Positions 10,932-17,948 of a stretch of 32,370 nucleotides of DNA are shown here, piece after piece. The notes beneath the pieces are model-generated. The model ran no database searches, was not told the origin of the DNA, and saw only the letters and a program-made list of their open reading frames with translations. The translations under genes were made by a program, and so were the position numbers. Position 1 is the stretch's first letter. Each line of letters begins with the position of its first letter. The stretch is from Akkermansiaceae bacterium (GTDB taxonomy: Bacteria > Verrucomicrobiota > Verrucomicrobiia > Verrucomicrobiales > Akkermansiaceae), in assembly GCA_947462535.1 (NCBI GenBank), contig CANHPN010000028.1, positions 1 to 32,370 of the forward strand, in the 5' to 3' direction.

Positions 10932-11459
10932 TCAATTCGGCGACTCCGGCGAATCGCCCAGCCGCTCGGATTTCTTCCTCTCACGGGCTTCGCGGAAGAA
11001 ACTTTGGAGCAAATACAGGCATTCCTCGCCGAGCACGCCGGGCGTCACGTCGCAGCGGTGGTTGAGCGGGGGATTGGCTTCGAGCAGGTTGATCCAGCTG
11101 CCGGCGGCTCCCGCTTTCGGGTCAGGGCAGCCGAAAACGACGCGCTCCGGCCGGCAATGGACGATTGCTCCGGCGCACATCGGGCAGGGCTCCTTGGTGA
11201 CGTAGAGCGTGCATTTTTCTAACCGCCAGTCGCCGAGCGCTTCCTGCGCGGCGGTCAGTGCGAGCATCTCTGCGTGGGCGGTGGCGTCCTTGAGCGTTTC
11301 CACCTGGTTCCAGGCTCGGGAAATGATCCTGCTCTCGCGCACCACCACGGCACCGACCGGGACTTCCCCGGCAGCATAGGCCTTGCGGGCCTCACGCAGC
11401 GCCTGGCCCATGAAGTAAGTGTCGCTGTGCAGATCAATGATTGAGGCTTCGTCTTCCAC
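10932..11459 (-). CDS. tadA: tRNA-specific adenosine deaminase
   Basis: A 175-residue zinc deaminase that converts A34 of tRNA-Arg(ACG) to inosine. The zinc-binding and catalytic motifs are intact: HAE (His62, Glu64) in ATAHAEMLAL, and PCPMCAGA (Cys92, Cys95). The usual N-terminal MGQALREARKAYAAGEVPVGAVVV is present, and the C-terminal region with NHRCDVTPGVLGEECLYLLQSFFR is standard. The GTG at 11457-11459 gives the longest frame; ATG at 11411 (MGQALREA) is an equally plausible start matching the minimum family length. The start region faces the divergent RAYT gene. Confidence 0.93.
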   Translation of the reverse strand: MEDEASIIDLHSDTYFMGQALREARKAYAAGEVPVGAVVVRESRIISRAWNQVETLKDATAHAEMLALTAAQEALGDWRLEKCTLYVTKEPCPMCAGAIVHCRPERVVFGCPDPKAGAAGSWINLLEANPPLNHRCDVTPGVLGEECLYLLQSFFREARERKKSERLGDSPESPN

Positions 11460-11488
11460 GCCGGAGGGGTAACGGATGGCGTGGCGGG

Positions 11489-12646
11489 ATGCACGCGGAT
11501 TTGATGCTCATTTCTCGAAGCCCCCGGGCGGTTACATTTTCCCTGATTTCCGGCGAAAGTCTGCTGGACAAGTCCGAGACGGAATTAGAAAATGACCCGG
11601 TGATTTACCACTGCATTTCGCGGGTGGTTGATCGGCGCTTTGTTTTCGGAAGGGAGGAAAAGGAAAAGTTCCGAACCTTGATGCGGATGCAGGAGAATTT
11701 CACGGGCTGCCGGGTAGCTTCCTACTGCCTGATGAACAATCACTTCCATATTCTCCTGGAGGTGCCGCCGATGGCGGAGGGGGGGCTTTCGGATGAAGCT
11801 CTTTTGAAACGTTTGTCGGCGATTTACAGTGAGGCGTTGGTGGCGGAGGTGGCTGCGGAACTGGCAGGGGCGCGACAGCAGGTGAAGGATGGCCCGGGTG
11901 AGGAGTTGCTGCTGGTGGGGCGGATTCATGAGCGCTTCACCTACCGGATGCATGATCTGGGCGAGTTCATGAAGGGCCTGCTGCAGCGTTACACGCAGTG
12001 GCATAACCGGATGCATTCGCGGACGGGACGCCTGTGGGAGGACCGTTTCAAGAGCGTGATCGTGGAGGACGGGGTGGCGGCGAAGACGATGGCGGCCTAT
12101 ATTGATCTGAACCCGGTGCGGGCGGGAATGGTGAAAGACCCGGCGGATTATCGCTGGAGCAGTTACGGCGAGGCGATCGGGGGCGGGGCGAAAGGGAATG
12201 GGAAGAAGGCGCGGGCCGGTTTGGTGCGTGCGCTGCGGGCTCACCAGGGCTGCGGAGCGGATGATTCTTTATGGGCGAACGACGTTTCGCGGGAATACCG
12301 TAAGCTGTTGATGGCAGGCGCGGTGGAGAAAACCGAGACGCGGACCGGCAGGAGCGGGGCCGAGGAAGCGAGGCGGACGGGCAAGGGTATGAACGCGGCG
12401 GAAGCGGCGCGCGAGAAGGAGTGCGCGAGCGAGCTGTCGACGGGCCGGATGCTGCAGTGCCGGATCCGCTATTTCACGGACGGCGCGGTGATCGGCAGCC
12501 GGAGTTTCGTGAACGAGGCGTTTGAGAAATCGCGGGAGCGCTTCGGTCCAAAACGCAGGGACGGGGCCAGGAAACTGAGAGGAGCCGCATCGGGTGCTGC
12601 CGGGACTTTGTGGAGTTTGAAGGATCTGAGGAAAGAAATTGGTTAG
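11489..12646 (+). CDS. REP-associated (IS200-like, HUH) tyrosine transposase, long form
   Basis: About 385 residues. The HUH domain is clear: PVIYHCISRVVDRRFVFG at the start, MNNHFHILLEVP with the metal-binding His85 and His87, and FMKGLLQRYTQWHNRMH with probable nucleophile Tyr168. TGRLWEDRFKSVIVED and YIDLNPVRAGMVKDPADYRWSSY follow, as in RAYT proteins. A C-terminal extension of about 130 residues ends in a region with RMLQCRIRYFTDGAVIGSRSFV. No insertion-sequence ends are seen, consistent with a single-copy domesticated RAYT that handles dispersed palindromes. The frame opens at 11441, overlapping tadA; ATG at 11489 is a compromise start, and a later one is possible. Confidence 0.88.
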   Translation: MHADLMLISRSPRAVTFSLISGESLLDKSETELENDPVIYHCISRVVDRRFVFGREEKEKFRTLMRMQENFTGCRVASYCLMNNHFHILLEVPPMAEGGLSDEALLKRLSAIYSEALVAEVAAELAGARQQVKDGPGEELLLVGRIHERFTYRMHDLGEFMKGLLQRYTQWHNRMHSRTGRLWEDRFKSVIVEDGVAAKTMAAYIDLNPVRAGMVKDPADYRWSSYGEAIGGGAKGNGKKARAGLVRALRAHQGCGADDSLWANDVSREYRKLLMAGAVEKTETRTGRSGAEEARRTGKGMNAAEAAREKECASELSTGRMLQCRIRYFTDGAVIGSRSFVNEAFEKSRERFGPKRRDGARKLRGAASGAAGTLWSLKDLRKEIG

Positions 12647-14693: not shown

Positions 14694-15260
14694 TTATTTC
14701 CAATTCACGGCGACCTCGGCGATGCGGCCGCTTTTGTCGTCGTATTTGAGGAGTCCGTGCTCGAGGGCGTATTCGTGGACGCATTTGGTGACCTTCACAT
14801 CGAAGGCGCAGTATTCGGCGATTTTCTTGAGCGGCGCGAACTCGCCGGATTTCTTGTGTTCCTGCCACCAGCGCAGCGCGTCGAGGCCGTCGGCGGTCTT
14901 GCCGGTGCCGAGCGAGGCGGAGGCCACGGAGTCGAGTTTGAGTCGGAAACCGACGATTTTTTCAAGCTCGAGCATCATGTCGAGGTTGATCGTTTGCTCG
15001 GCGAGCGTGTGGAAAACGTAAGGCTGGAGGACCGGATAATCGAACTGCAAGTGGTTCCAGCCGACGACGAGATCGGCGCGGACCAGTTCCTCGCCGAGCT
15101 TTTCCATCTCGTTTTCCGCGTAAATCTCGTAAGTCCCGCGGGCGGTGCTGTAGGTCACGCCGACGGAAACCTGCATCTTGTCCTTGTGCATCGAGCCGCC
15201 GACGTCGCCGAAGCTGCGCTGGGTTTCCAAGTCGAAATAAACGATGTTTTTGCCGGCCAC
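14694..15260 (-). CDS. DEDD-type 3'-5' exonuclease-like protein (RNase H fold)
   Basis: A 188-residue protein with all three Exo motifs of the DnaQ/RNase H-like superfamily: IVYFDLETQ (Asp10, Glu12), VVGWNHLQFDYPVL (Asn69, Asp74) and YCAFDVKVTKCVHEYAL (Tyr150, Asp154). The YxxxD pattern places it in the DEDDy-like, YprB/PolB-exonuclease-like group. Substrates could be DNA or RNA ends. The frame is open further upstream, but GTG at 15258-15260 (VAGKNIVYFDLE) matches the usual start just before ExoI. It is the last gene of the minus-strand sigma-factor group, 76 bp after the condensation-domain gene. Confidence 0.8.
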   Translation of the reverse strand: MAGKNIVYFDLETQRSFGDVGGSMHKDKMQVSVGVTYSTARGTYEIYAENEMEKLGEELVRADLVVGWNHLQFDYPVLQPYVFHTLAEQTINLDMMLELEKIVGFRLKLDSVASASLGTGKTADGLDALRWWQEHKKSGEFAPLKKIAEYCAFDVKVTKCVHEYALEHGLLKYDDKSGRIAEVAVNWK

Positions 15261-15336
15261 GCGCGTTTCTAGTCGAGAGCGCGGGCACCCGGCAAGTGTG
15301 ATGGCGAACTTCGCCGGATTTGAGCGGGACCGCCCC

Positions 15337-16464
15337 TCACAACCGCTCCAACACGCGGACCCAGTCGCGCAGGAGAGCGTGCCGTCCGGGGCCTTCCACC
15401 TCCAGCCGCAAGTCTGGCAGGACATACGCGGTGGCCATCAAAGTCTCGCCTTTGGGCTCGTGAAGCACCAGCGCCTCTACGAAATCCCCGCCCGCCAAAT
15501 AGCGCAGCGTGCCGCGTTCAATCATGATCACGCTGCTAGAAGGCCCGTTTGTGTCAGGGAAAACTCCGGGCGCGAAATCCTCCGGCGACACCGACTCGAT
15601 GGCCCGCAGCGCCAGCAGGCGGGCGCGGAATTCCCGCAGGCTCCGCGCCACGTCAGCGCCGGCCCGGGGGATCGGCACGGGCAGCGTATTCATGGTAAAT
15701 CCCGCGGTCCCCGGCTGCGGCGCGCCCGCGCGCAGCTGCTCGACGACTACCGCGTCGGCCCCGGAAATTTCCATCAGCGCCTGGCCCCAAGCCCAGACGA
15801 GAATAGTCGCGGCGGTCCCCTCCATCGACTCCAAGCGCCGCGCGAAATCATTTCCCATGAAACGCACCGCAGGCCCCGCAGCTTCATCGGGAAAACTCAT
15901 TTCTATCGGACGCACCCCGCCATCCCGGAAGATCCGCTCCGCCAGCGCCAGCGATTCCGCCGTGGGCGCGCGCCACTCGGCGACGGCCAGCGGCTCGGGA
16001 TTTCCACCCGCGAGCCGTTCCAGGAAATTCCGCAACACCCGCGCAAGCGACCTGCCGTCTAGCAGCGCGTGGTGGAAGGTCCAGATGAACCGCCCATCGT
16101 CCGGCCAATACACCGCCCGCCACGGCACCTCGTGCGGTGCAAGCAGCGGGCGTGCGCGGTCCGCCTGCCGCCAGTTTTCCCATGAGGCCGGCAGAGGTTC
16201 ATGCTGGTTCAAAAAACTCCGCAGAGTCACGAATTCCCTGCCCGCTGCATGTCCGTTAGCCGTCACGAACGCGACCCGCAGCGCCTCGGTGGCTGCGATG
16301 GTTTCCTCCCATGCCGCAGCCACGCGCCCGCGCACCCGCGCGCACGCGAAGAGGATTTCCACCTGCTCCACATGATGCCCGGCGTCGGGCTCAGCGAGCG
16401 AATCCCGCAACATCACCCGCTGCAAAGGTGCCAGAAGAGGCGATGGATCAGGATGGAGGCTCAT
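15337..16464 (-). CDS. Stand-alone condensation-domain protein (NRPS C-domain/acyltransferase fold)
   Basis: A 375-residue protein formed by one chloramphenicol-acetyltransferase-like condensation fold. The active-site motif HHxxxDG is intact as WTFHHALLDGRSL (His131, His132, Asp136, Gly137). An opening LAPLQRVMLRDSL resembles the C1 motif, and GFTMNTLPVPIP resembles the C5 motif near the solvent channel. No adenylation or carrier domain is encoded nearby, so it is not part of a local NRPS. It may join an acyl or aminoacyl group to an unknown acceptor, as in free-standing C-domains or PapA-like acyltransferases. It lies 15 bp after the anti-sigma-like gene on the same strand. ATG at 16464 is preferred to the upstream TTG. 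Confidence 0.7.
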   Translation of the reverse strand: MSLHPDPSPLLAPLQRVMLRDSLAEPDAGHHVEQVEILFACARVRGRVAAAWEETIAATEALRVAFVTANGHAAGREFVTLRSFLNQHEPLPASWENWRQADRARPLLAPHEVPWRAVYWPDDGRFIWTFHHALLDGRSLARVLRNFLERLAGGNPEPLAVAEWRAPTAESLALAERIFRDGGVRPIEMSFPDEAAGPAVRFMGNDFARRLESMEGTAATILVWAWGQALMEISGADAVVVEQLRAGAPQPGTAGFTMNTLPVPIPRAGADVARSLREFRARLLALRAIESVSPEDFAPGVFPDTNGPSSSVIMIERGTLRYLAGGDFVEALVLHEPKGETLMATAYVLPDLRLEVEGPGRHALLRDWVRVLERL

Positions 16465-16479
16465 TTCCAACGGCGAGCT

Positions 16480-17367
16480 TCAGAACAGTGCCGTCAGCTT
16501 GCCGACTTCCGTGTGGCTCATCAGCAGGAACACGTTTTCCCCCTCCTGCCAGCGCGCGGTCGCCCAGTTTCCGCATTGGGAAAAAGCGGGGCGCTCGATG
16601 TCGGGAAGCTCGCCGCTCACGTCCTCGCGGCGGAAAATCACCACGTGGACGACTCCGGCTTCGCGCTCGTCGAAGCAAATGAGCGAACCGCGTTTGCCGT
16701 CGATCACCAGCTCCCGGCAGCCGATTCCCTTCACGTTCTGAAGCCCGGGCGGCAGGCAGCAGAAGCAAGGCAATTTGCGCTCCTGCAAATTTTGAACCAG
16801 CAACCGGTGATCCTCGCGCTTCTCGTCCAGGTCAAACAAGGGCGATTCAAAGGTCCGGATGAAACCCGCCTGAACCGCTTCGATCGGGACGCTTGAGGTT
16901 TTCACCACCGCCGTCGGGCTGGCAGGGCGGGTGATGAAAAACGCCAGCGCGATACCCGCCGCAGCTGCTAACGGAATAGCCGCGCGCCGGAAAACCGAAA
17001 TCCTAACATGATCGCGGCTTCCCGTCCGTTCCATCGCGGCGATCACCTCGTCGCGCAGCGCGGCGGGCGGCTGGATCGAGGCCAGCGTGCCGATCCAGGC
17101 CGCGTCGTTCAGGTCCTGCGCCTGCGGGAAATCCCCGCGCTCGCCGGCCAGACAGGCGAAAATATCCTCACGCAAATGACCTGGTAGATTCACCGAGCCC
17201 AGCGCGATTGCGAATTCCGCATCGAAGGCCCGCTCGCTCGCCAGCCACTCGCCCAGCTCGCGGTTCTCCAGTGCCAGCTTGAGCGCCTCCGCGAAATCAG
17301 GATCGCCCGCGTCCGCGCCGTCCGGCCGGAAGCTCCGCAGGACGAATCGTGCCTGTTCCTTATCCAT
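16480..17367 (-). CDS. Probable membrane-spanning anti-sigma factor
   Basis: A 295-residue protein overlapping the ECF sigma gene by 8 bp, the usual position for its anti-sigma factor. The N-terminal 130 residues are cytoplasmic-type and helical, with PGHLREDIFACLAGE and QPPAALRDEVIAAMERTG segments repeated in style. One membrane helix follows (AAIPLAAAAGIALAFFITR, about 129-147). The C-terminal 145 residues would be periplasmic, with CFCCLPPG, SLICFDEREAGVVHVVIFRRED and a closing EGENVFLLMSHTEVGKL. There is no HxxxCxxC zinc-binding motif at the N-terminus, so it is not a typical ZAS protein. Role inferred from position and topology. Confidence 0.7.
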   Translation of the reverse strand: MDKEQARFVLRSFRPDGADAGDPDFAEALKLALENRELGEWLASERAFDAEFAIALGSVNLPGHLREDIFACLAGERGDFPQAQDLNDAAWIGTLASIQPPAALRDEVIAAMERTGSRDHVRISVFRRAAIPLAAAAGIALAFFITRPASPTAVVKTSSVPIEAVQAGFIRTFESPLFDLDEKREDHRLLVQNLQERKLPCFCCLPPGLQNVKGIGCRELVIDGKRGSLICFDEREAGVVHVVIFRREDVSGELPDIERPAFSQCGNWATARWQEGENVFLLMSHTEVGKLTALF

Positions 17368-17902
17368 GGCGGACTCCCTCCCGTTCCATTTGAAGAATGT
17401 TTCTCGGCGCGCTCGAAGGCTCGGCTTTCATCCGCTGCCTGAGCATTTCCTTGCCGCGTGAAAGCCGCGACATCACCGTGCCGATCGGGATATCCAAAAT
17501 CTCGGCGATCTCCTTGTAGCTGTGCTGTTGCAGATAGAAAAGCGCCAGCGGCGCGCGGTAGAATTCATCCAGCGCGCCTAGCAGATCCATCGCCCGCTGC
17601 CCGTCCATCTGGCGCTCCGCGTCCTGTTCCGGGGCGACCAGCGCCTCCGCCTTTTCCTCGTCCAGCGGCTCGTCGGAAAATTTCGCCGCCCGCCTGCGCT
17701 GGTTGAGAAATTCCCGATGCAAGGTGGTGAAAAGCCACGTCTTCGCCTTCGAGCGGTCGCGCAGTTGGCTGTTCTTCGCGGCCCAGATGGAAAACGTCTC
17801 CTGCACCAAATCCGACGCCCGGTCCACGTCACGCGTCAGCGACATCCCGAAGCGGAACAACGCTTGGTAATGGGCATCGACTAACTCTGCGAACTCACTC
17901 AT
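17360..17902 (-). CDS. ECF-type RNA polymerase sigma factor
   Basis: A 180-residue sigma-70 family factor with only regions 2 and 4. Region 2: YQALFRFGMSLTRDVDRASDLVQETFSIWAAK, then KTWLFTTLHREFLNQRRR. Region 4: LLGALDEFYRAPLALFYLQQHSYKEIAEILDIPIGTVMSRLSRGKEMLRQRM with the helix-turn-helix. It begins the minus-strand group and overlaps the anti-sigma-like gene. ECF factors of this kind respond to envelope or extracytoplasmic signals. A tract of nine C residues lies about 45 bp upstream of the ATG; no autoregulated promoter motif could be defined. Confidence 0.9.
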   Translation of the reverse strand: MSEFAELVDAHYQALFRFGMSLTRDVDRASDLVQETFSIWAAKNSQLRDRSKAKTWLFTTLHREFLNQRRRAAKFSDEPLDEEKAEALVAPEQDAERQMDGQRAMDLLGALDEFYRAPLALFYLQQHSYKEIAEILDIPIGTVMSRLSRGKEMLRQRMKAEPSSAPRNILQMEREGVRHG

Positions 17903-17948
17903 CGGCAGCCATGGGAGTGTTGGAAATCGATTTCTATTCCGAAAAATT

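Follow-up and report, generated by a model that had tools for sequence, protein, structure and literature searches.

VibH, the free-standing condensation (C) protein of vibriobactin synthesis, is part of a siderophore synthetase with its own carrier, and control of nonribosomal peptide synthetase (NRPS) pathways by sigma factors of the extracytoplasmic function (ECF) type is known, e.g., from PvdS and pyoverdine. Here, we describe a gene for a free-standing C protein that lies behind genes for an ECF sigma factor and an anti-sigma-like protein in Akkermansiaceae bacterium (assembly GCA_947462535.1, genome G000, 2.8 Mb, 95% complete, 104 contigs). The window, i.e., the whole stretch of DNA that was analysed, spans 32,370 nt of contig CANHPN010000028.1 (C28). 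Among described proteins, VibH, in the account given by PMC3547906, joins an acyl donor on a carrier to an acceptor that is soluble, and the passages on zeamine in the same article present Zmn19 as a C domain that is predicted to stand free and is proposed to connect a chain on a carrier with a polyamino chain. OaaC, a C domain of gut-bacterial fatty-acid-amide synthesis, is described in the relevant part of PMC13142362 as a free-standing protein acting on an acyl-acyl carrier protein (acyl-ACP) and a free amine; in that account, fatty-acid-amide C domains usually have the motif (D/H)HxxxDS, with G in 17% of the set, and their clusters supply their own adenylation (A) protein and ACP. A search of the open-licence literature found no paper joining a free condensation domain with an ECF sigma or anti-sigma factor.

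Relatives, predicted fold, and selection of the C protein

The C protein of the window is probably a C domain that has escaped, of a type already known but placed in a new setting. Its nearest relatives, 37-45% identical to it, are the C domains of synthetases in G029, G036, and G266 (of another genus), which are fused to adenylation, thiolation (T), and thioesterase (TE) domains in the order C-A-T-TE. A profile search of 73 genomes of the genus found the C family in 15 of them, as 13 free copies and three fused ones, with both kinds in G036. The fused genus copies lie in frames of 1279-1317 codons; two (G029 and G036) are shown to be C-A-T-TE synthetases, and the copy of G446 is known as a 1279-codon frame with HHALLDG in its locus. 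In a tree for which three other NRPS C domains served as outgroup, all 13 free copies group together in a single clade (99/99), with the fused forms outside it. Because of this topology, the simplest reading is that C probably escaped once from a one-module synthetase. In a class-wide sample, which scored at most four candidates per genome and may miss members, at least 11 of 384 genomes had a C match at 1e-20, of which four are genomes of this bacterial family (three with free copies, one with a fused copy) and the other seven, in frames of 790-2124 codons, are probably ordinary NRPS C domains. A separate search of 59 genomes found the C family in nine of the 37 that belong to the genus, and its additional match outside the genus (G055) is an ordinary NRPS.

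The window protein matches PF00668 at 24.8 bits (E = 1.1e-5) and does not reach the Pfam cut-off of 30.6. Six of nine free relatives scanned exceed this cut-off (L025, L026, L016, L017, L018, and L033, the last a close relative with 44.1 bits), and L030, L020, and L027 do not. The best AlphaFold model, made with nine aligned sequences, has a pLDDT of 73.8 and a pTM of 0.72. It matches the C domain of SrfA-C in Foldseek (2.8e-15) and, in VIA, the C domain of AmbE (Z 29.0, root mean square deviation 3.1, 349 aligned), the starter C domain of RzmA (Z 27.7, 4.4, 364 aligned), and the stand-alone VibH (1l5a; Z 27.6, 3.4, 347 aligned), the three Z values being nearly equal. All 50 chains among the VIA rows listed are of the condensation family (Z 24.9-29.0), with aligned ranges within residues 2-377. 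The protein is thus predicted to have, over its whole chain, the full two-lobe fold of NRPS C domains, which resembles chloramphenicol acetyltransferase (CAT). The preliminary description of this DNA had read a 375-residue condensation fold with an intact HHxxxDG, and this is borne out by the predicted fold and by HHALLDG at residues 133-139 (in the 377-residue numbering that follows from an alternative start, TTG at 16470). The motif is retained in all 13 free copies and in the four fused copies inspected. No strongly hydrophobic segment was seen in the protein (best 19-residue mean 1.08), which, being single-domain and free-standing, stands alone as the amide synthases of the VibH type do.

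The C gene is under purifying selection, with omega between 0.21 and 0.39 in 22 of 28 pairs (dS was undefined in the other six), a range near or above that of the anti-sigma gene (0.14-0.31). The eight copies tested have no internal stop codons. A pseudogene is not favoured. One TGA was flagged inside the matched stretch of each of G436 and G441 (taken as the genomes of L014 and L016), but these codons fall on the stop and ahead of the ATG, and neither is within a reading frame.

Neighbourhoods of the C gene across the genus

A composed system of sigma, anti-sigma, and C protein had been proposed, with the question of whether the C gene always sits beside this pair. It does so in just four of the 13 free copies (G000, G001, G011, and L014), which form one clade (100/99 support); the other nine, and so most relatives, have it elsewhere. 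(G436, G381, G450, G455, and G441 are taken as the genomes of L014, L018, L019, L017, and L016, respectively.) At E<=1e-20, the C-bearing genomes of L016, L017, L018, L019, and G036, all draft assemblies, gave no sigma match. Sigma is present in 31 of the 37 genus genomes at the same threshold (59 genomes searched, G000 included); eight of these 31 have any C-family gene and 23 have none. Neither the C gene nor the exonuclease gene that follows it in the window was seen at the 18 other genus sigma loci fetched. Together with the promoter-like motif, which is absent from C loci away from sigma (see below), neighbourhood and co-occurrence lead us to reject sigma-C as a conserved unit. The adjacency does exist, but it is a feature of a few sister species, and the pairing is not a general system.

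A two-component neighbour is commoner than sigma. A kinase, a NarL-type regulator, or both are divergent from C in seven of the 13 free loci: a HisKA_3 kinase with a NarL-type regulator in L017, L018, L019, G009, and G036, only the kinase in G024, where the contig then ends, and only the regulator in G031. These assignments come from domain scans for the kinases of L017, G009, G024, and G036 and the regulators of G009, G036, and G031, and from locus comparison for the other neighbours. No kinase or regulator match was seen near C in L016 or in G034, whose contig has just 6.2 kb. The C gene comes and goes or moves, because kinase-regulator loci exist with and without it: G000 and G011 keep the kinase-regulator with no C there, and in G003 and G033 a glyoxalase-family gene, the same that flanks the other side of C in L017, directly adjoins the kinase-regulator, an arrangement that is the empty site for C. 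The sigma, C, and exonuclease genes of G009 are on one contig, about 240 kb from one another.

A few further features of these loci were noted. An element like GGTCGAG-nnn-GAATT, possibly a kinase promoter or regulator site, lies just upstream of the NarL-type kinase, whether or not C is present, in L025, L026, L017-L019, and L176-L179, and in weaker form in L030 and L180. The GGTCGAGCnnGGAATT-like element between C and kinase was considered as a site for C and dropped, as it tracks the kinase and also occurs in loci lacking C: it precedes the kinase in four of six such loci, the G011 copy having one mismatch, is partly present in G015, and is absent from G017. In L016 (7721-10699), the C gene adjoins rsfS, which sits between it and a gene that looks kinase-like by eye. 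The sigma locus of G024 (L125) holds rsfS, sigma, anti-sigma, and a gene with the same N-terminus as the kinase-like gene of L016, and rsfS lies directly upstream of sigma in five of the 18 other genus sigma loci. The sigma/anti-sigma pair may have been deleted from the genome of L016. In G031 and G036, a frame of 712-739 codons with a GH1-family glycosidase domain directly follows C on the same strand (L020:9890-13261 and L030:4582-8021); in G036, taking the first start gives a 4-bp overlap of the two frames, and C may form a two-gene unit with the GH1-domain gene in these two genomes.

The four-gene locus and its promoter-like motif

The features of the locus are listed in Table 1. The preliminary description gave four minus-strand genes in the order sigma, anti-sigma, C, and exonuclease, and the coordinates confirm an 8-bp overlap between the first two and gaps of 15 bp and 76 bp thereafter. 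This arrangement is not due to chance, because the same order is retained in three further genomes (G001, G011, and L014), though these also have wider surroundings in common. Across the order, 50 of 59 genomes have a homolog of the exonuclease, and we read it as a general gene, probably unrelated and simply downstream; it was not seen near sigma at any of the 20 further loci fetched, which were stretches of 4.6-11 kb.

Table 1. Features of the locus in the window (coordinates on C28)
Feature	Position	Strand	Length	Basis
Putative autoregulatory ECF promoter, GGAATA-N17-CTCCCAT	17911..17940	-		Just upstream of sigma; pattern conserved across the genus
ECF sigma factor	17360..17902	-	180 aa	PF08281 8.8e-14; PF04542 2.1e-11
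Anti-sigma-like protein	16480..17367	-	295 aa	Position, hydrophobic segment ~128-147, weak NCBIfam match
Free-standing condensation (C) protein	15337..16464 (ATG 16464)	-	375 aa	PF00668 below cut-off; predicted fold; HHALLDG
DEDD-type (RNase_H_2) exonuclease	14694..15260 (GTG 15260)	-	188 aa	PF13482 E 3.3e-11

The sigma factor has regions 2 and 4 and shares a unit with what appears to be a membrane anti-sigma factor, as in an ECF pair, and the two may bind each other. The anti-sigma protein had no Pfam match at E<=1; its putative identity comes from its position beside sigma, a single hydrophobic stretch in the hydropathy profile, and an NCBIfam 'antisigma' match that is weak and far below cut-off (E 0.006). 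It adjoins sigma in each of the 18 further sigma loci of the genus that were fetched. The stretch before sigma contains a conserved motif, GGAATA-N16/17-CTC(C/T)(C/T/A)A. Searched as GGAATA-N14..18-CTC[CT][CTA]A, it is found in 21 of 22 genus loci (the exception is L140), and it is missing from both sigma loci of other genera, from all 11 C loci that do not adjoin sigma, and from all six kinase loci lacking C. The 2.8 Mb of G000 contain three matches, and the reversed-pattern control gave zero. One match is the sigma site; a second (L202) lies inside a same-strand frame of 658 aa that looks sdhA/frdA-like by eye, and the third (L201) is about 480 bp before the next listed plus-strand frame. 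The latter two are not accepted as regulon targets, and the distribution of the pattern leads us to reject the idea that the C gene belongs to the sigma regulon irrespective of its location.

The conservation of the motif suggests that sigma regulates its own putative promoter and that, in the window clade, transcription from this site would read through into C. No terminator-like site was found in the gap between anti-sigma and C. Two such sites on the minus strand fall within sigma and anti-sigma, in a region with six terminator-like sites versus 4.4 (sd 1.8) in shuffles, which is little above chance. Co-transcription of C with the ECF pair, as first proposed, is probable in the window species and in its three sisters (G001, G011, and L014).

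Elsewhere in the window, a 401-aa protein with an IS200-like (Y1_Tnp) domain is encoded at 11441-12646 on the plus strand, and in G006 and G025 similar sequences are found in the vicinity of sigma.

Carriers and synthetases in the same genomes

The remark that neither a carrier nor an adenylation domain is nearby holds: C28 has zero carrier matches, and G000 has no relative of the A-T-TE part of the sister synthetases at E<=1e-30. On both counts, no A/T assembly line was found in which the C protein could work. A PF00668 search of G000 gave zero matches at E<=0.001 and missed the window's own C gene too, so it is insensitive here. Two carrier matches were found in G000. The one on C34 is a 117-codon AcpP-like frame; that on C26 (L183:4965-5225) is a short free-standing protein of 86 aa with GLDSL, next to a gene that looks rlmN-like by eye. 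A match of the same profile range (~19-67) as the C26 protein occurs in eight of nine C-bearing genomes checked; G024 has a second match of a different profile range, and G009 has carrier matches in a 2579-codon frame. A trans-encoded A-T-TE partner, a candidate we rejected, had no match at 1e-30 in G000, G009, G011, G024 (57% complete), and G031; NRPS matches were found in the free-copy genomes G001, G034, and G036. This search covered the free-copy genomes other than G381, G436, G441, G450, and G455.

A proposed explanation and its rivals

The reading we favour, to which we give a slightly better than even chance, is a soluble stand-alone condensation enzyme that escaped from a C-A-T-TE synthetase and acts like VibH and OaaC, drawing on a free ACP to make an amide (or ester). 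In an ancestor belonging to the genus or its family, a single loss of A-T-TE would have freed the C domain from a one-module synthetase. The soluble protein would take an acyl thioester from the fatty-acid ACP or from a second free-standing ACP and join the carrier-bound acyl group to a small soluble amine (or alcohol); we infer this transfer from acyl-ACP to amine because of the analogy with VibH and OaaC. In most bearers, the gene is placed divergently beside a NarL-type sensor kinase/response regulator, possibly under its control. In the window clade, it would have been placed secondarily in an autoregulated ECF operon, the protein being made when the anti-sigma factor releases sigma. The wider proposal, that the escaped C protein is fed by housekeeping carriers in genomes without a synthetase, is put under different sensors, and makes a signal-triggered acyl amide, is tentative and to our mind rather doubtful.

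Several points weigh against the escaped enzyme. Its substrate and activity are proposed by analogy, and its HHxxxDG motif departs from the (D/H)HxxxDS that most members of the fatty-acid-amide group have. Canonical C domains are longer than this protein, and its fold is predicted with moderate confidence only, as the other four AlphaFold models have mean pLDDT from 69.1 to 52.3 and three of the five are below 55. The fused forms branch in no clear order in a tree with just three outgroup rows, and there is room for the direction from free to fused. Kinase/regulator homologs without adjacent C in G000, G011, G003, G033, G015, and G017 indicate that the link between C and the two-component genes may be merely an inherited neighbourhood. 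Finally, the omega of C is above those of sigma (0.06-0.13) and of the exonuclease (0.06-0.07). This last point, the lack of an A-T-TE match in its own genome at 1e-30, and a patchy distribution (15 of 73 genomes) would suit a remnant in decay, left over from a lost synthetase and expressed with no needed activity. We regard such a remnant as improbable, since HHALLDG persists in every free copy, the tested copies are free of internal stops, omega stays at 0.21-0.39 across deep divergence, and the gene occurs in several neighbourhoods.

An O-acyltransferase that takes acyl-CoA and an alcohol to modify lipids or glycans is unlikely, if less so than a remnant. Wax ester/DGAT- and PapA-like O-acyltransferases belong to the same CAT-like superfamily as C domains, one of the nine free relatives scanned (L020) has a weak WS_DGAT_cat match below cut-off (E 5e-4), and the gene with a GH1-family domain that follows C in G031 and G036 would fit glycan modification. 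Yet the window protein and nine free relatives match Condensation, the nearest relatives found are synthetase C domains, and the VIA rows listed are all of the condensation family, though absence from that list proves nothing. Alternatively, the ECF pair and the C protein might form a dedicated module, the pair having evolved to control how the C protein transfers acyl or aminoacyl groups. The 15-bp spacing, the order common to four genomes, the conserved motif before sigma, the terminator-free gap, and the sigma site being the only obvious promoter position among the three motif matches of G000 all agree with it. As a general system, it is refuted by the nine free copies away from sigma, the five C-bearing genomes with no sigma match, the missing motif at the other C loci, and the 23 sigma-bearing genomes that lack C; the terminator-like sites inside the sigma and anti-sigma genes speak against it as well, though they are little above chance. 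We thus judge a dedicated module improbable.

Comparison with known systems

The likeness to VibH lies in the free-standing C fold, which on the side of the window is a predicted model; unlike VibH, the window protein has no NRPS match or carrier nearby. Like OaaC, it is free-standing, but its motif is HHALLDG and its neighbours are the anti-sigma-like and exonuclease genes, with neither an A protein nor an ACP adjacent, and it is not of the OaaC type by motif or cluster. Zmn19 belongs to a cluster of polyketide synthase, NRPS, and fatty acid synthase genes, as the part of PMC3547906 on zeamine describes it. With the synthetase C domains of G029, G036, and G266, it has HHALLDG in common; theirs are fused to A, T, and TE, and that of the window is alone. 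VibH, OaaC, and Zmn19 all belong to clusters supplying a carrier and an activating enzyme. If our reading is true, a free C protein selected where no synthetase was found, and beside two kinds of sensor, would be an assembly-line domain turned independent enzyme, and the genus, which has sister forms of both kinds, fused and free, allows this domain escape to be tested.

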